This document shows, piece after piece, positions 41 through 14,876 of a stretch of DNA of 35,705 nucleotides. Position numbers and translations under genes: made by a program. Each line of letters begins with the position of its first letter. Position 1 is the first letter of the stretch. The DNA lies in NCBI GenBank assembly GCA_902785355.1, contig CACZYF010000031.1, positions 1-35,705 of the forward strand. Direction: 5' to 3'. Under the pieces are notes generated by a model. That model had not been told where the DNA came from, did no database searches, and was given only the letters and a program-made list of their open reading frames with translations. This DNA comes from an uncultured Ruminococcus sp. (lineage in GTDB: Bacteria; Bacillota; Clostridia; Oscillospirales; Acutalibacteraceae).

Positions 41-92
41 GCAATTCCTCAGTCCCCTTTCGGGGACAGCTCCCTTTACCAAAGGGAGCCTT
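41..92. repeat. Palindromic intergenic repeat (REP-like)
   Basis: Two adjacent perfect hairpins are visible: GTCCCC/GGGGAC at 52-67 and GCTCCCTTT/AAAGGGAGC at 69-89 with a 3-nt loop. The wording (cctcagtc, gacagctccct, agggagcctt) resembles an abundant intergenic repeat I associate with Clostridiales genomes; that family link is from memory and only one copy lies in this window. Confidence 0.55.
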
Positions 93-138
93 GGAAATCA
101 ACTACTCATATATTTTATGATACTTTTTCGACAAGCTG

Positions 139-165
139 AAACGCCTCCGTTTGGAGGCGTTTTTT
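139..165 (+). terminator. Intrinsic terminator of a gene outside the window
   Basis: A 9-bp stem (ACGCCTCC arm at 141-148, GGAGGCGT arm at 153-160) with a 4-nt loop is followed by a T run at 160-165. The T run is on the plus strand, so it should end a transcript entering from the left edge. Confidence 0.8.
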
Positions 166-212
166 CTTTATTGGAATAATATTCCGCTTTAGAGATTATG
201 ATATAGAGGGAT

Positions 213-254
213 TATACTAAACGCTGATCAAATCTTTTATCAAGGATTAATATA
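213..254. mobile_element. Deleted remnant of a small MITE
   Basis: The stretch at 224-254 (gatcaaatcttttatcaagg and following bases) is nearly the same as the right end of the MITE at 14893-15017, and TATACTAA at 213-220 matches that element's left tip. The middle is missing. No gene lies in 1-270. Confidence 0.5.
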
Positions 255-270
255 ATGATTTGACTGTCTG

Positions 271-945
271 TTACAAAACAGCCCCGGAGCTTTCCTGTCG
301 GGTTGTATTAAACCGCTCAAAGATACTGTCGTGCGGCTGATAAGTGAAGCTCATCTTTTCACCGGTGAACGGATGCCGAAAGCTCAACTCTGCGGAGCAC
401 AGCGCGATATTGTCGAGCGCCAAGGTGCTGCCGTAGCGGCGGTCTCCCGCCAGCGGAAGCCTGCGCGACGCGAACTGCACGCGGATCTGGTGCGTTCTGC
501 CGGTCAGCAGACGAATCCTCAACAAGCTGACGGATATTCCCTCATAATCGGCTTTATCAAGCGTTTCATAGCGCAGCCGCGCTTCTTTGACGCCCTTACG
601 TTCCCGCTTGACGACATAGCTTTTGTTTTTTCTGCGGTCAAAGAAGAGCAGATCGGTCAGTTCTCCCGAAGGAGCCTTCGGTATGCCCTGCACGACGGCA
701 AGATAGGTTTTCACGAGCTTTCCCTGTGCGATCAAAGCGCTCAGTCGTTTGGCGGCTTCCTTCGTTTTGGCAAACACCATCACGCCCTGCGTGGTACGGT
801 CGAGACGGTGTACGGGATAAACGGTATCGCCTGTCATATCCCGTAGCAGCGCGGGCATGTTCTGCTTCTTCTCATCAAATTCGCTGAGCACCCCGTAGGG
901 CTTGACTGCCGCTATGAGGTGCTCGTCGCTGTAAAGTATCTTCAT
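271..945 (-). CDS. RluA-family pseudouridine synthase
   Basis: The 224-residue protein should convert uridine to pseudouridine in rRNA or tRNA in the cytoplasm. The signature HRLDRTTQGVMVFAKT starts at residue 46, with the expected catalytic Asp49, and the later motif GRTHQIRVQF is also typical of the RluA/RluD family. There is no N-terminal S4 RNA-binding domain, so it is one of the short catalytic-domain-only members (RluA/TruC-like), and the substrate site cannot be named. The gene starts 4 nt after the stop of the formate-tetrahydrofolate ligase gene on the same strand and has only a weak ribosome-binding site, so it is probably read from the same transcript. The C-terminal tail after RFNTT is extra. 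No clear minus-strand terminator is seen downstream. Confidence 0.9.
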   Translation of the reverse strand: MKILYSDEHLIAAVKPYGVLSEFDEKKQNMPALLRDMTGDTVYPVHRLDRTTQGVMVFAKTKEAAKRLSALIAQGKLVKTYLAVVQGIPKAPSGELTDLLFFDRRKNKSYVVKRERKGVKEARLRYETLDKADYEGISVSLLRIRLLTGRTHQIRVQFASRRLPLAGDRRYGSTLALDNIALCSAELSFRHPFTGEKMSFTYQPHDSIFERFNTTRQESSGAVL

Positions 946-9239: not shown

Positions 9240-9255
9240 ATCCGATTCGGTAATG

Positions 9256-9295
9256 CTTCCGCGGCTTTTCTGTAAAGGCGTCTCCGGAGCGGAAG
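9256..9295. other. Hairpin after the TerB-like gene
   Basis: CTTCCGC (9256-9262) and GCGGAAG (9289-9295) form a 7-bp stem around a 26-nt loop. No T run follows, so it is a poor intrinsic terminator; it could be a processing or weak termination site. The DNA from 9300 to 9460 is very AT-rich and I see nothing else in it. Confidence 0.4.
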
Positions 9296-9460
9296 AGCGG
9301 CGCATATTGCCAAAAAAGAAAAAATCAAGAACCGATCGATAAATGATACAATATTTGTGCATTTTGACAAAATTCTGAATTTGTTGTAATTCTACCATAT
9401 TTAATTTCAATATTGTAATTATAATTCGTCGATTTTAATAATAATTTACAAAAACTGTTA

Positions 9461-9489
9461 TTGACAACGCCCGATCCAATGTTTATAAT
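9461..9489 (+). promoter_or_regulatory. Perfect sigma-A promoter of the cohesin gene
   Basis: TTGACA (9461-9466), 17 nt, TATAAT (9484-9489). Transcription should start near 9496, giving an unusually long leader of about 230 nt. Confidence 0.88.
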
Positions 9490-9495
9490 AAGACT

Positions 9496-9712
9496 CGTAT
9501 AGGTGCCTTGGCGTCTCTGCGGGCAGCGGAGGTCGGTCGGGCACAGTACATGATGCTTTGGGGTCTGCGCTTTAGGGCAGAGACCGAGGCATCCGCCGCT
9601 CGGAATCCCGGACGGCGCATACGCACCCCGGACAGGGGATCATCTGTCCCCGATATATGAAGACTGTGGGATTAGTAGTATATCGGTATCAATCCAATCC
9701 CGCAAATTCTTG
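9496..9712 (+). ncRNA. Candidate structured 5' leader RNA (possible riboswitch or attenuator)
   Basis: A GC-rich island in AT-rich DNA, between a perfect promoter and the cohesin gene. Five hairpins can be drawn in order: GTGCC 9503-9507/GGCAC 9540-9544 around CTCTGC/GCGGAG (9515-9531, loop GGGCA); GATGC/GCATC at 9552-9593 with inner GTCT/AGAC; CGCCG/CGGCG at 9594-9617 with inner CGG/CCG; a 9626-9652 element where GGACAG/CTGTCC and GGGGA/TCCCC exclude each other; and GGGATT/AATCCC at 9669-9701. GGTGC (9502-9506) could instead pair with GCACC (9623-9627) to close a multi-branch junction. The opening ataggtgcc recalls cobalamin riboswitches, but their conserved core is absent. I recognise no known class. 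Confidence 0.55.
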
Positions 9713-9726
9713 AAAGGAGCTTGGTC

Positions 9727-10992
9727 ATGAACAAGCGAATCTTATCTATCTTGCTTTGTTTAATGCTGGTTGCTTCTTTACTGGTATTGGCCGTACCGGT
9801 TAACGCCATTATGCCTTCGCATAATGTCGAGCTGAAAGTAACCGCAGATAAGACAAACGCAAAACCCGGTGATACAATTACTTTCACCGTAACTATGGGC
9901 CCTGTTGAGGCTCTCGGAACTCTTCAGATGGTAATGGATATTCCTACCGGTCTTACCTACGTTCCTAAATCCGGTACTACCATCAACAAGGCTGAGTTAG
10001 GCTTTGACGACATCGCGTTCACCGATGAATCCCTGATGATCAACGGCGTCCGTTCCGAGTATGAAGAGGACGGCGTGAAAACCGGCGGTTATGTCAGCAC
10101 TACCGATACCACGATCGGTTCCTATCAGGTAACGGTCGATGATAACGCTGCTGCCGGCGATTATACCGTTAGTCTTACGAACCTTGAGTTCTACGATTGC
10201 CTCGATTGGGAAGACGCTACTTCTTTGTACTACGTCACTCCCGCGGTCGTAACTATCGGTGCTTCCGAGGACGCTACCGAGGCTGCTACCGAGGCTGCTA
10301 CCGAGGCTGTAACTGAGGCTGCTACCGAGGCTGCTACCGAGGCTGCTACCGAGGCTGTTACCGAGGCTGCTACCGAGGCCGCTACCGAGGCTGCTACCGA
10401 GCCCGTACACGTACATGATATCATCTTTGTACCCGAAGTACCCGCTACTACCACAGCAGACGGTATGGCTGCTCACTATGAGTGTACCGATCCCGGCTGT
10501 GCAGGCAAGTACTTTGCTGACGCTACCGGTTCCGCTGAGGTCACTCTCGAGGATCTGATCATCCCCAAGATCACTCCCACCGAGCCCGTAACCGAGGCTG
10601 TTACCGAGGCTGTAACTGAGGCTGCTACCGAGGCTGTAACTGAGGCTGCTACTGAGGCTGCTACCGAGGCTGCTACCGAGGCTGCTACCGAGGCTGCTAC
10701 TGAGGTCGTAACTCCTACCGAGGACGCTACTCAGGCTGCTGGGGATCCCACCGAGGTCGTAACTCCTACCGAGGGCGCTACCGAGGCTGCTACTCAGGCT
10801 GCTACTCAGGCTGCAACCACTCCCGCGTCCAAGGATCAGTCTACTAAGGATTCTTCCAACAAGACTACCACTTCTCCGAAGACCGGCGACAGCACCAACA
10901 TGTATCTGTGGATGCTGATCATGCTCGCGTCTATGGTTGGCGCAGGCGCAGTTCTGTACACTGCTAAGCGCAAGGGTATCTTCACAAAGTAA
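9727..10992 (+). CDS. Wall-anchored cohesin-like surface protein with SPKTGD sorting signal
   Basis: The 421-residue secreted protein has a signal peptide (about 1-28), a beta-rich domain at about 35-178 that looks like a cohesin (VELKVTADKTNAKPGDTITF start, YYVTPAVVTIG end), a Thr-Glu-Ala repeat linker (about 179-226), a short domain (HDIIFVPEVPATTTADG to LEDLIIPKI) seen in Firmicutes surface proteins, a second repeat linker, and a sorting signal: S383-P-K-T-G-D388, a membrane helix and the tail KRKGIFTK. SPKTG is the type of signal read by class B sortases such as C. difficile SrtB. With dockerin proteins nearby, the likely role is to hold them on the cell wall. ATG 9727 is chosen because GGAG (9716-9719) is 7 nt upstream; the in-frame TTG at 9721 is too close. 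The cohesin call is by eye; another adhesin fold is possible. Confidence 0.75.
   Translation: MNKRILSILLCLMLVASLLVLAVPVNAIMPSHNVELKVTADKTNAKPGDTITFTVTMGPVEALGTLQMVMDIPTGLTYVPKSGTTINKAELGFDDIAFTDESLMINGVRSEYEEDGVKTGGYVSTTDTTIGSYQVTVDDNAAAGDYTVSLTNLEFYDCLDWEDATSLYYVTPAVVTIGASEDATEAATEAATEAVTEAATEAATEAATEAVTEAATEAATEAATEPVHVHDIIFVPEVPATTTADGMAAHYECTDPGCAGKYFADATGSAEVTLEDLIIPKITPTEPVTEAVTEAVTEAATEAVTEAATEAATEAATEAATEAATEVVTPTEDATQAAGDPTEVVTPTEGATEAATQAATQAATTPASKDQSTKDSSNKTTTSPKTGDSTNMYLWMLIMLASMVGAGAVLYTAKRKGIFTK
10268..10404 (+). repeat. In-frame Thr-Glu-Ala codon repeats, block 1
   Basis: The 12-nt unit gctaccgaggct and close variants (gtaactgaggct, gttaccgaggct) repeat about eleven times and encode ATEA/VTEA. 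Unit length is a multiple of three, so copy changes keep the frame and only alter stalk length. Confidence 0.85.
10579..10712 (+). repeat. In-frame Thr-Glu-Ala codon repeats, block 2
   Basis: A second run of the same 12-nt units, about eleven copies, follows the short middle domain of the cohesin-like protein. Near-identical DNA in the two blocks makes recombination between them possible, which would remove the middle domain. Confidence 0.85.
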
Positions 10993-11188: not shown

Positions 11189-11713
11189 ATGAAACACACA
11201 GAACAAAATGCCGCGTCAGCCGTATCGCCCGAAAAGAAACAGAGCCAGAAGTATGTCGTTATCGGCGTTCTCGCCGTGCTGGCGGTTATCATCGTGGTCG
11301 CTCTTGTCGTTTTACTGAGAGGCTGCTCCGGCCCTTCCGGTACCAACGGCAACTATGAAGGCTCCTTCACCTCGCCTAACTCCGTATTGGGGTACTCCAA
11401 CGGTCAGATCCCGACTACCGGTAATCGTCATGATGTTACCGTCACCGGCGACGGCGGTCCCGACGCGATGGAGGTCATGGGCAACTGGCGCATAGATGAG
11501 GTCACGGTCTATAAGTTTGACGGCTACGGCAGAGGTGTTATGCTGACGAACGTAGATAATTATACCTTTGCTTACAGCGCGATCAACGGTCATCTGATCA
11601 TTGACTTTGACGTTGATAACGCGATGGACTGCGATTATACCTACAAGATCTCCGGTGATAATCTGACCATTACGCGCGGCGGCAAGGACTTTAAGTTCAC
11701 AAAGGAGTCCTGA
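11189..11713 (+). CDS. Membrane-anchored protein, DUF5640-like
   Basis: The 174-residue protein has a short cytoplasmic N-terminus, one membrane helix (about 29-50) and an external domain of about 115 residues. The repeating pattern W-x(5-6)-TVYKFDGYGRG, YTFAYSAINGHLIIDF, YTYKISGDNLTI resembles the small beta-barrel DUF5640 found in Clostridiales lipoproteins. RGCSG just after the helix is a poor lipobox. AAGGA at 11176-11180 fits the start. It overlaps the following sortase gene by one base (TGATG), so the two are translationally coupled and may work together; it is not a sortase substrate, since it lacks a sorting signal. Function unknown. Confidence 0.72.
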   Translation: MKHTEQNAASAVSPEKKQSQKYVVIGVLAVLAVIIVVALVVLLRGCSGPSGTNGNYEGSFTSPNSVLGYSNGQIPTTGNRHDVTVTGDGGPDAMEVMGNWRIDEVTVYKFDGYGRGVMLTNVDNYTFAYSAINGHLIIDFDVDNAMDCDYTYKISGDNLTITRGGKDFKFTKES

Positions 11714-12561
11714 TGAAACACGCAGCACCTACACCTCCTGCCAAGAAGAAAGGCGGCAGGGCGGTCGTAATCATTCTATTGATTATCTTTATCGGCGGCT
11801 TTTGCGTCGGCGGTTTTATGCTCGGCAAGACGCTCTTGACAGCGAAGCATGAACAGGAGACCTATGATAAGCTGCACCAAATCGTTGATGAAGCCGACAA
11901 CGGCGACGAGCTAAGTGAGAAGGGCACTCTTCGTAAGTACGATCCGCTGTACGATTTGAACAAGGATTTTTTCGGCTGGCTTAAGATCGAGGGTACAAAG
12001 ATCGATTATCCCGTGATGTACAGGCCGAACGATAACGAGTATTATCTGCATCATGATTTCTACGGTGAGTATTCCGAGAGCGGTATGCTGTTTATCGACG
12101 GTGACTGTCCCGCGGATGGGAACTACTTCCTGATCTACGGTCATCACATGCGTAACGGCAGTATGTTCGGCAGCCTTCCCGATTATATTGACCAAAAGTT
12201 CTATGAGAAACACAAGACGATCTTCTTCGATACGCGTTATGAACGCCGCGATTATGAGATCTGTGCCGTATTTTACTCCGAGGTCTATGACGTGAAGGAT
12301 GAGGCGGGCAGATTCTGTTATTATAACTACAAGGATCTCAGCTCCAAGCAGGAATTCGAGGAGTATGTCGCCAACATCAAGGAACGCTCTCTCTATGATA
12401 CCGGCGTCACGCCCAAGTTCGGCGATGACCTGATCGTGCTCTCGACATGTAATTACCATACCGAGGACGGCAGATTTGTTGTAGTCGCCCGCAAGGTGAA
12501 GCAAGAGAAGAAGCAACCCGAGACCACCGCTCCGACCTCAGTGCCTGCAACTGTAAAATGA
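11713..12561 (+). CDS. srtB: Second class B sortase
   Basis: The 282-residue membrane-anchored cysteine transpeptidase has one N-terminal helix (about 17-38) and a catalytic domain with His144 (YGHHM), Cys246 (LSTC) and Arg254 (EDGRFVVVARKV). The tail is a Thr/Pro linker. It shares the motifs of the sortase at 5014 but the two differ widely outside the core, so they are old paralogues and may read different signals. Its start codon overlaps the upstream stop by one base, with GGAG just before it. Being 720 nt downstream of the SPKTGD protein makes it the nearest candidate enzyme for that substrate. Confidence 0.93.
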   Translation: MKHAAPTPPAKKKGGRAVVIILLIIFIGGFCVGGFMLGKTLLTAKHEQETYDKLHQIVDEADNGDELSEKGTLRKYDPLYDLNKDFFGWLKIEGTKIDYPVMYRPNDNEYYLHHDFYGEYSESGMLFIDGDCPADGNYFLIYGHHMRNGSMFGSLPDYIDQKFYEKHKTIFFDTRYERRDYEICAVFYSEVYDVKDEAGRFCYYNYKDLSSKQEFEEYVANIKERSLYDTGVTPKFGDDLIVLSTCNYHTEDGRFVVVARKVKQEKKQPETTAPTSVPATVK

Positions 12562-12605: not shown

Positions 12606-14876
12606 TCAAGCGAGCGGTATATGAGCGGCGCTGTTTCGGTTATCGATGGTGAAGGTATAATCATCGCGCCGGATGACCGGCGGACTGTCGGTATAGCCGA
12701 GCGCCTCAAGCTCTTCGGGTGTGTAGTTGTCCCATTCATTCGGTAAGCCGACATAGGGGAGAATGTACAGCTCCAGCCGGTGACCCGCTTCAATGGTGTA
12801 GATATTCGGATTCAGATATAAACGGTATTCATACCATTCGCCGCTTTGTGCCGGATTAGCCGTATCGACCGCGCTTGACGGAAGATAACCCGCGTGAGGG
12901 TCACGCAGATCCATGATTCCCGAGGCGATGATCTTCCTGTGAACCGGGGTGTTGTTCCAACGGACGAGCTTGTCGCTGTCGATATAGGGCGAGCCGCCGA
13001 TCACAGTTTGCGAAATGCCGGATGATGTCGGAACGAAAGCGTCAAACGGCTCGTCGGAGTAATCGACCAGGATCGCCGCGACGGTCGGGTTATCGGTGCT
13101 CAGGTTATCGGTTTTGAGCCTGAGCGCTATTTCTGCCGTTCCCTTGACGGTTATCGGTTGTTTGACTTCGGTTTTCCACAGCGCCGCACAGTCACAGGAC
13201 TGACCGTTGAGCGTGTGTTCCATTAGGTTGCCGGTCGTTTTATATGCGCCCTTTGCGCTGACCTGCGTGAACTCAGCGCTGCAGTCGGGAGATAAGCTCA
13301 TCGAGCTTTCTTCATCCAAGCTGTCATAATGAGTGAAGCTGCCGTCCGTGTTGTTCTGCGCGAGAACACAGGGGAGGTTCTCGATCCCGTTGACGACCCC
13401 CGCCAGATAGTGGCTGAACCAGCGGTTGAGCAGCTCCTTATAGGTCATATCCTCGATCATGATGTCTGTGCAATCGTTTGAGCCTGCGGGGCGTGTGTGA
13501 CCGTTCTGCAGAAGCAGCAGCTTCGGCGTGATTCCGCACCGCTCAAATGCGCGGCGCATGAGATCGGCATGCTTCGGGGTGACGTTATCATCGTTCAAGC
13601 CCTGCACGATCAGGGCGGACGTCTTCAGCGATTCGGTGTAGGAGGTATAGTCCCGGCTCTCCCAATAGGCACCGTAATTACCTTGTAGGGCGGCCTGCTC
13701 GTTGACGGCATACAGCCGCCAGCGTTCATACAGCGCCTTCAGCGGCGGCAGGGCTCCGTCAAAGAACCGCGAAGCGCAAAAACCGCTGAGAAAGGCGCCG
13801 TAATCATATTCAGCTGTGGTCGGCGTCCCCTGCGAATTGGTGTAGTCATACCAGCTTGCCGGGGCTGAGACAGGGACGATCGTTTTCAGCCCTTTGACGC
13901 CGCTTGCCGCGACTTCGAGCGCCGCTGCTCCGCTGTAGGAGAAGCCGGTCATTCCGACGCTGCCGCTCGACCAGTCTGCCTTGACCGCACAATTATCGTC
14001 ACGGTCGATATAGGCGGCACGATCACCGCAGAGCCATTCGACGATACACTTGAAGGCGTCCGCCTCCATCCGGCTGCCGCTGAGCGTAAAGCCCTCGGAG
14101 CCCTTTGTGCCTAAGCCCGCCGAGCCCGCGACGGCAAAGCCGCGTGACAGCAGATCGCTGTGATCGCGATAGTTTGTGTAGTAATCAATGTCGGAGCTTT
14201 TAAACAAGCTTGCCGCGTACTCGGTCGTAACACAGCCGGCAGGCACACGTTTTGAGGGTTGGTTGTGCAACAGGGATTCCGGTAATTCTTCAACCGCGCT
14301 CGAGAAAACCGTCCGAGGATCTCTTGTTCCCGCGCTGTAGGGATTTGCTTCAAGGATCACCGGCGCCGGATAATCCCCCTCCGCCGCGGGCCGGGGCAGC
14401 TGAACCCAGGTCTTGACGAGATCCGGCTTACCGTCGAGATCGGTATCATAATCTGTCTCGACATATACAGTGAAACGGACGACGTCGGCGGACTCGGCGA
14501 CATTATCCACGGTAAGATCGAGAATCCTTTGCGCCGTTCCGTTCTCAAAGCGCATCGTCCTACGTGCGACCGGATTGCCGATCGGACAGGCGACGAACAT
14601 TCCGGCGAGACTGCGCTGCAGAAGGGTCGCGTCGATAATGTCGATATCGCCGTCGCGATTGACGTCGCCGAGGTTCTCTCCCTTGAAGGAGAGCGCTTTC
14701 ATCAGCGCTCCGTGACGCAGAATTACCGTTATATCGATGATCTCTATCTCGCCGTTGACGTCGGCGTCACCGAGGAGAAAGTCAGCTTCACCCGCTGAGC
14801 AGGCGGAGCCGGACATGCATAGCGCTCCCGCAACGCACAGACAGCACAGGAAAAAGGACAAAAGACGACGTTTCAT
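12606..14876 (-). CDS. Secreted X-Pro dipeptidyl-peptidase-like hydrolase (S15/CocE) with N-terminal dockerin
   Basis: The 756-residue protein has a signal peptide (about 1-29), an N-terminal dockerin (about 34-95: two calcium-loop repeats GDADVNGEIEIIDI and GDVNRDGDIDIIDATLLQRS), an alpha/beta-hydrolase domain of the PepX/CocE family, and the beta-sandwich PepX C-terminal domain. The nucleophile is Ser313 in GFSYSG, His460 lies in QNGHTRP, and the acid is in the DDNVTP stretch. PepX enzymes remove X-Pro dipeptides; CocE relatives cleave esters or beta-lactams, so the exact substrate is open. Family members are usually cytoplasmic or plain secreted, so the dockerin is notable. AAAGGAGGT ribosome-binding site 6 nt upstream. 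A MITE lies between this site and the promoter. Confidence 0.85.
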   Translation of the reverse strand: MKRRLLSFFLCCLCVAGALCMSGSACSAGEADFLLGDADVNGEIEIIDITVILRHGALMKALSFKGENLGDVNRDGDIDIIDATLLQRSLAGMFVACPIGNPVARRTMRFENGTAQRILDLTVDNVAESADVVRFTVYVETDYDTDLDGKPDLVKTWVQLPRPAAEGDYPAPVILEANPYSAGTRDPRTVFSSAVEELPESLLHNQPSKRVPAGCVTTEYAASLFKSSDIDYYTNYRDHSDLLSRGFAVAGSAGLGTKGSEGFTLSGSRMEADAFKCIVEWLCGDRAAYIDRDDNCAVKADWSSGSVGMTGFSYSGAAALEVAASGVKGLKTIVPVSAPASWYDYTNSQGTPTTAEYDYGAFLSGFCASRFFDGALPPLKALYERWRLYAVNEQAALQGNYGAYWESRDYTSYTESLKTSALIVQGLNDDNVTPKHADLMRRAFERCGITPKLLLLQNGHTRPAGSNDCTDIMIEDMTYKELLNRWFSHYLAGVVNGIENLPCVLAQNNTDGSFTHYDSLDEESSMSLSPDCSAEFTQVSAKGAYKTTGNLMEHTLNGQSCDCAALWKTEVKQPITVKGTAEIALRLKTDNLSTDNPTVAAILVDYSDEPFDAFVPTSSGISQTVIGGSPYIDSDKLVRWNNTPVHRKIIASGIMDLRDPHAGYLPSSAVDTANPAQSGEWYEYRLYLNPNIYTIEAGHRLELYILPYVGLPNEWDNYTPEELEALGYTDSPPVIRRDDYTFTIDNRNSAAHIPLA

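Follow-up and report, generated by a model that had tools for sequence, protein, structure and literature searches.

In a 35,705-nucleotide stretch of DNA from an uncultured Ruminococcus sp. (hereafter the window), a scaffoldin gene is preceded by a leader RNA with a predicted conserved pseudoknot near the ribosome binding site, apparently undescribed so far, which probably sets the amount of scaffold protein made. We propose that positions 9496-9760 encode a new family of cis-acting mRNA leaders that would act post-transcriptionally on scaffoldin translation or mRNA stability and would be specific to the start of sortase-type scaffoldin genes with one recognised cohesin, an explanation that, taken as a whole, we hold at roughly even confidence. 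Comparison among related leaders shows the predicted architecture to consist of a 5' hairpin domain, a hairpin P3, a hairpin P4 whose loop can pair with the tail of the leader, and a nearly invariant hairpin around the start codon.

To our knowledge, the balance between scaffoldin and dockerin-bearing enzymes in gut bacteria is little understood outside Clostridium cellulolyticum, and a covarying RNA at the scaffoldin start, placed either behind a promoter or between genes, would offer a direct handle on it that can be fused to reporters, probed, and screened for ligands. The leader also adds an RNA family that has no Rfam match and in which constraint extends past the start codon into the part of the gene that encodes the signal peptide. 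Among the papers listed on leaders, pseudoknots, and riboswitches of cohesin, dockerin, scaffoldin, and cellulosome genes, no title or abstract opening describes this leader RNA, and a term search of the main texts of two RNA-discovery papers returned no mention of Ruminococcus, Eubacterium, or cohesin.

The scaffoldin gene and its leader

The scaffoldin gene (9727-10992, forward strand) encodes a signal peptide (assigned by eye), a cohesin domain, TE-rich repeats, and an SPKTG sorting signal; one cohesin is recognised in the protein. Pfam gave no cohesin match for the window protein and weak to clear matches for three of four relatives. An AlphaFold2 model of residues 28-183 (a 156-residue region, pLDDT 92.6) finds cohesins as its best PDB fold matches, the top one being the Ruminococcus flavefaciens ScaB cohesin 5n5p (E 1.1e-9, TM 0.64), and on the predicted structure the gene product thus belongs to the cohesin fold. 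Beyond the gene (11189-12561 and 12606-14876) come a DUF5640 protein and a sortase and then, on the opposite strand, an S15-type peptidase with a dockerin; the region is likely a surface-complex locus.

The perfect sigma-A promoter that the first-pass annotation had placed at 9461 is indeed present (9461-9489, forward strand), with TTGACA at 9461-9466, a 17-nt spacer, and TATAAT at 9484-9489, matching the consensus at 12 of 12 positions. By inference the transcript starts at about 9496, giving a leader of about 230 nt up to the ATG at 9727. The leader had also been described as GC-rich in AT-rich surroundings; it is GC-rich (57% overall, 64% for 9496-9655), and the surroundings are AT-rich on the upstream side only, since GC content is 26% over 9300-9495 and 53% across the window.

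A covariance-model search against Rfam 15 returned no match in the window at the gathering threshold, consistent with the earlier view that the leader fits no known class, and a search of eight relatives' loci gave two weak matches, neither at a leader. Two weak H/ACA-type matches within 9250-9800 (Pab91 and HgcG) lie far below the Rfam threshold and were set aside, as was a phage or viral origin: 47 Klebsiella phage records share a single 35-nt match (E 0.5), and the protein has no viral relative.

Structure and covariation of the leader

The forward strand of the leader folds at -95.4 kcal/mol (z -2.8), better than 199 of 200 dinucleotide shuffles, and the reverse strand more weakly (z -1.85). 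In single folds, the 5' domain opens with hairpin P1 (9497-9549, outer strands 9497-9507 and 9540-9549). When 15 genus leaders are folded one by one, a 5' hairpin can be made out by eye in 13 of them; it is absent in L032 and L036 and shifted in L038 and L049. There follow the long hairpin P2 (9552-9593, with strands 9552-9561/9584-9593) and P2b (9594-9617, with strands 9594-9603/9608-9617), the latter seen in single folds only. P2 shows compensatory changes relative to the sister leader L049 (read by eye), and a helix of different sequence stands at its place in 12 relatives, with 3 doubly changed pairs of 11. Because RNAalifold applied to the 5' domain recovered P2 only, with MAFFT aligning P1 poorly, P1 and P2b rest on single folds, for which the sister comparison is a further basis. 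The at least five consecutive hairpins first proposed are therefore borne out in part: several are present, P3, P4, and a hairpin at the place of P2 are conserved, and P1 and P2b are single-fold predictions.

Covariation was assessed on 15 of the 19 genus leaders (set A2), leaving out the deviating L041, L042, L043, and L047. Across these, the P3 hairpin (9630-9649, GGACAG/CTGTCC) is paired in 97.8% of cells, with one pair switched between UA and CG in 7 of the 15 leaders, and P4 (9650-9686, strands 9650-9657/9679-9686) shows double changes in five of eight pairs. We compared P4 with a tree-based null in which inferred substitutions were replayed on the tree and any 6-bp helix anywhere in the alignment was scored: none of 200 null alignments reached the P4 score (1.69, or 2.02 one pair further in, against a null maximum of 0.52, or 0.40 with site-rate weighting). 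This helix-level test was made after seeing the weak result of a pairwise tree-based test of little power: with all column pairs counted, 1 of 31 pairs had E below 0.05, and with proposed pairs only, 2 of 31. The proposed fold including the pseudoknot pairs 91.6% of cells, versus 27%-46% in slid controls, and contains 38 doubly changed cells, versus 15.6 in shuffles; two of five global measures are not clearly above shuffles (pairs with double changes, as high in 39 of 500; further pair types, in 190 of 500). P4 carries most of the covariation. We note in passing a natural variant, L041 (853-968), in which a deletion takes most of the P4 5' strand and the pseudoknot segments remain.

Two further pairings of the first-pass annotation are not conserved. 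It had set the GGACAG/CTGTCC stem against a mutually exclusive GGGGA/TCCCC pairing; the first of these is the P3 helix, with its one doubly changed pair, whereas the alternative (9635-9639/9647-9651) is paired in 70.7% of cells without a double change, and sliding it by one column gives 78.7%. A long-range helix (9502-9506 with 9623-9627) has a run of at least five pairs in roughly that place in only two of the 14 other leaders (L036 and L038), L049 having a 6-nt run elsewhere, and shuffles often reach the observed run length in all 15 leaders including the window (48 to 300 of 300). The leader survived two tests set in advance, in that homologous leaders show compensatory changes (in P3 and in P4, which exceeds 200 of 200 null alignments) and no Rfam family matches. 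It is, as judged from aligned sequences, real and conserved, with a conserved structure that differs from the one first drawn; the pseudoknot, the start-codon hairpin, and the conservation into coding sequence had been missed.

The pseudoknot (9665-9704) would join the apical loop of P4 (9665-9672) to 9697-9704, a strand that lies just upstream of the Shine-Dalgarno sequence and ends 8 nt before it. The best pairing between the two segments joins them in all 25 leaders compared (19 from the genus and six distant ones), with mismatches in some and a shifted register in L042; the scan covered only -75 to -45 versus -36 to -21, so that the position is partly set by the search. Between the genus form (GUGGGA/UCCCGC) and the distant form (GCGAGG/CCUCGC or GCGAGA/UCUCGC), G-C pairs change to A-U and A-U to G-C, with an A-C mismatch in L060, L066, and L069. 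Individual pairings stand out only moderately, with 0 to 45 of 300 shuffles doing as well, and within the genus the pseudoknot core and the start hairpin vary too little to covary; what argues for the predicted pairings is that they stand at corresponding positions and change between the two forms. An upstream ORF beginning at an ATG in loop 3 was considered and rejected, as the ATG is absent in 9 of 25 leaders and stands in mixed frames in the other 16.

Downstream of the pseudoknot, the Shine-Dalgarno sequence AAAGGAG (9713-9719) is the same in 25 of 25 leaders, five of which were found with an exact pattern that contains it. A hairpin of GCTTG (9719-9723) with CAAGC (9732-9736), spanning 9719-9736 at -6.9 kcal/mol, holds the ATG at 9727 in its loop and is identical in all 19 genus genes, in a search allowing up to three mismatches. 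Paralogs L050 and L099 keep the stem with altered loops (GCTTG-AATATGAA-CAAGC and GCTTG-TTAATTATGAT-CAAGC, respectively), paralogs L122 and L095 do not keep it, and in L100, which has a TTG start, one stem pair is broken. Conservation continues at the nucleotide level through codons 1-12 of the signal-peptide coding start (9727-9762). Codon 4 is the rare CGA in all six distant genes and in 18 of the 19 genus genes; CGA makes up 29 of 401 arginine codons in 23 window ORFs, which we chose as likely genes. Over codons 2-12, genus members with the same residue share the codon in 1711 of 1827 comparisons, versus 1280 of 1748 over codons 13-26. These comparisons suggest selection on nucleotides at the gene start beyond what the protein needs; since codons 19-24 vary little as well, constraints of another kind may be at work.

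Distribution and genomic context

A blastn search of 161 genomes from the same genus found clear, if partial, matches, and the first 15 leaders so obtained end in the same Shine-Dalgarno-to-start stretch. Searching for that stretch with up to three mismatches found it in 19 of the 161 genomes at zero mismatches, plus one extra place with three, and a covariance model built from the 15 genus leaders only (R1) returned the same 19 at E below 1e-9 together with six weak places. An exact scan of genome contigs with 25 nt around the start gave 24 loci, 18 in the genus genomes already found and six new; the five of these with enough upstream sequence are labelled by their depositors as Eubacterium ramulus ATCC 29099, Tyzzerella sp., Peptococcaceae, Anaerotruncus sp., and Oscillospiraceae. 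As these five were found by an exact 25-nt match, the identity of their starts is by selection; a sixth, L100, in a genome of another family, was added by R1 (run on 391 class genomes) and not by the pattern. The resulting set of 25 leaves out the sixth pattern locus, L068 (with 18 nt upstream), and the paralog L050/L098. A second model (R2), built from the six distant leaders with no sequence of the genus among them, also finds the window leader (E 7.6e-10), part of the score coming from the shared Shine-Dalgarno-to-start stretch, and the two forms therefore look like one family.

The element is rare. Within the class sample only the window's own genome and one other (G503) gave strong matches, 12 further ones falling at E 0.002 to 0.1, and a search of seven distant genomes found a single copy in six and none in the last, where the copy sits at the end of a contig. 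Strong leader matches thus stand in 19 of 161 genus genomes and six distant ones, once per genome and always before a cohesin-type gene. Weak model matches at L094, L096, L097, L101, and L102 showed no cohesin-like frame and were not taken as members. Of the 11 weak loci L110-L120, five were inspected: L110, L112, and L116, whose frames are not cohesin-like, and L115 and L119, which show a start. Conversely, a profile of the N-terminal region (up to 22 candidates scored per genome, E up to 1e-12) finds at least 25 genes in at least 22 of the 161 genomes, and, among the matches listed, the 19 leader genes take ranks 1-18 and 20, with L147 at rank 19. The other six are paralogs or weaker relatives with no strong leader match; five of them were read and have short or different leaders (L146 of G022 is not among the five). 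Among these is a second sorting-signal cohesin-type gene in the window's own genome (G000:C24:4679-5194; L122, L148); its leader is short and contains another hairpin, and no pseudoknot was seen in it. G148 has a similar paralog (L050).

Genus and distant copies occupy different settings. Promoter-like sites upstream of the element match 12 of 12 consensus positions in 15 of 19 genus leaders and at least 10 of 12 in all 19. In the six distant genomes, the element instead lies in a gap of 164-187 nt, with no promoter-like site above 9/12, after an ORF ending in dockerin-like repeats; Pfam finds dockerin in five of the six upstream ORFs (for L069 just under and for L071 below the cut-off), the sixth having been scanned without its C-terminus. 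As the distant copies follow a dockerin-ending gene, the element is not tied to its own promoter. The RNA goes with the scaffoldin start, which points to a post-transcriptional role. The attenuator offered in the first-pass annotation, alongside a riboswitch or stable RNA, is not supported, given this position in six distant genomes and the scan of the window, which found no terminator-like site within 9250-9800; what stands of that proposal is that the cohesin gene has a structured leader that is conserved.

Several smaller observations concern individual loci. L043 and L047 (genomes G104 and G137) combine weaker promoters (10/12) with a different 5' domain, which looks intermediate between the genus and distant forms, and retain P4 and the pseudoknot segments. 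By eye, several of the distant gaps (among L051, L060, L066, L069, L071, and L100) contain an extra stretch that resembles a hairpin, its loop of the GCCATAT type, as well as the string AAGAATATA ahead of P3; genus leaders carry a similar GGAATATA or GAAATA ahead of P2b. The upstream frames of L060, L069, and L071 run to 1168-1542 codons, that of L060 reaching the end of its locus, with dockerin-like repeats at the end.

Possible modes of action and related systems

In the mechanism that we propose, the module would act after transcription, its compact pseudoknot fixing where the ribosome landing site begins on the 5' side and blocking entry of 5' nucleases, and its start-codon hairpin setting the efficiency of initiation. 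Together the two would fix scaffoldin dosage relative to its dockerin partners, whether the gene has its own promoter, as in the genus, or follows a dockerin-ending gene, as in the distant genomes. We entertain more tentatively, as one joint proposal, that the element represents a previously undescribed class of RNA, either a riboswitch or gated by a protein, which would sense a signal related to substrate or surface and, by controlling scaffoldin, gate assembly of the surface enzyme complex; the class would be conserved in several clostridial groups, in some with a promoter of its own and in others in a gap between genes.

A translational riboswitch in the strict sense, whose pseudoknot would bind a small metabolite (for example a sugar or second messenger) and alter access to the Shine-Dalgarno sequence or start hairpin, strikes us as rather unlikely. 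The compact loop-tail pseudoknot adjoining the Shine-Dalgarno sequence suits it, as several known pseudoknot riboswitches have such geometry; the preQ1 and SAM-II types are translational riboswitches with a compact pseudoknot directly upstream of the start site, a likeness offset by the lack of an Rfam match here and by a Shine-Dalgarno sequence that lies outside the pseudoknot and unpaired in our model. One strong copy per genome fits as well, the P3 and P4 tests supply the conserved, covariation-supported structured domain that membership in a riboswitch class calls for, and conserved unpaired bases are apparent by eye (AUGAAA in loop 3, UAACUAA in the distant form), although few are common to the two forms (by eye). 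Further, 8 of 25 leaders have a pyrimidine run (e.g., CCTTTC), at about -34 to -28 relative to the start codon, that could base-pair with the Shine-Dalgarno bases GAAAGG. However, these candidates (5-7 nt, overlapping loop 3 and the pseudoknot 3' strand) are within shuffle range, 11 to 126 of 200 shuffles doing at least as well, and the run is absent from the other 17 and from the window, whose best run is 3 nt. No masking partner conserved across the 25 leaders was found, nor a conserved mutually exclusive expression platform, the proposed alternatives not being conserved, and the target gene codes for no metabolic enzyme or transporter. A cellulosomal precedent is the 5'-UTR of the xyl-doc cluster of Clostridium papyrosolvens, over 400 nt long and proposed as a putative riboswitch (PMC5815224). 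Compared by description only, both are long conserved structured leaders of cellulosomal genes, whereas the xyl-doc leader acts through proposed termination stem-loops and no terminator was found in the scan of the present one.

We give similarly little credence to an element of the selective RNA processing and stabilization type (SRPS). All six distant copies lie between subunits of the complex, a dockerin-ending ORF and the scaffoldin gene, and in the parts consulted of the work on C. cellulolyticum, cip-cel mRNA is regulated by processing and stem-loops (PMC4423207; PMC10311766), a 231-bp segment of the cipC 5'-UTR being structured and containing a processing site (PMC4423207). Structured RNA around clostridial scaffoldin and dockerin genes is thus common to both systems, the distant copies adjoining dockerin-ending genes. 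The described cip-cel stem-loops are tied to cleavage sites and include no pseudoknot, in contrast to the conserved pseudoknot and start-codon hairpin predicted here from sequence, and none of the 19 genus copies is intercistronic: each gene has its own promoter-like site and therefore no upstream message that needs cutting.

Quite improbable, in our judgement, is that a trans-acting protein or small RNA binds at the invariant Shine-Dalgarno-to-start stretch, for example in autoregulation. Such binding would explain why 25 nt are identical in 19 genomes of one genus, with high identity through codon 12, beyond codon need. Against an antisense RNA, opposite-strand matches in the window's own genome reach 15 nt (E 0.7, within an open frame) and 19 nt (E 2.6); against autoregulation, a secreted scaffoldin is an unlikely RNA binder. 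Finally, a cassette without RNA function, spread by recombination and conserved through recent transfer, would fit near-identical gene starts in genus members that are only 37%-68% identical to the window protein over the first 175 residues, and is very improbable because the many compensatory changes of P4 lie directly beside the invariant stretch, a pattern not expected of a transferred tract.

Beyond these alternatives, the leader of our proposed family resembles the odc1 motif of Alphaproteobacteria (PMC8632094), a hairpin upstream of a gene that pairs through its loop with nucleotides outside the hairpin; odc1 differs in containing a uORF, unlike the loop-3 ATG here, with its 9 absences and mixed frames. 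On the protein side, Sca5 and Sca2 of Ruminococcus bromii are sortase-signal scaffoldins (PMC5814915), and the text of that paper does not contain the word "untranslated". The likeness, which is by description and not by orthology, is that of a cohesin protein with a C-terminal sortase signal from a Ruminococcus-type gut bacterium; Sca5 has two cohesins, versus the one recognised in the window protein.
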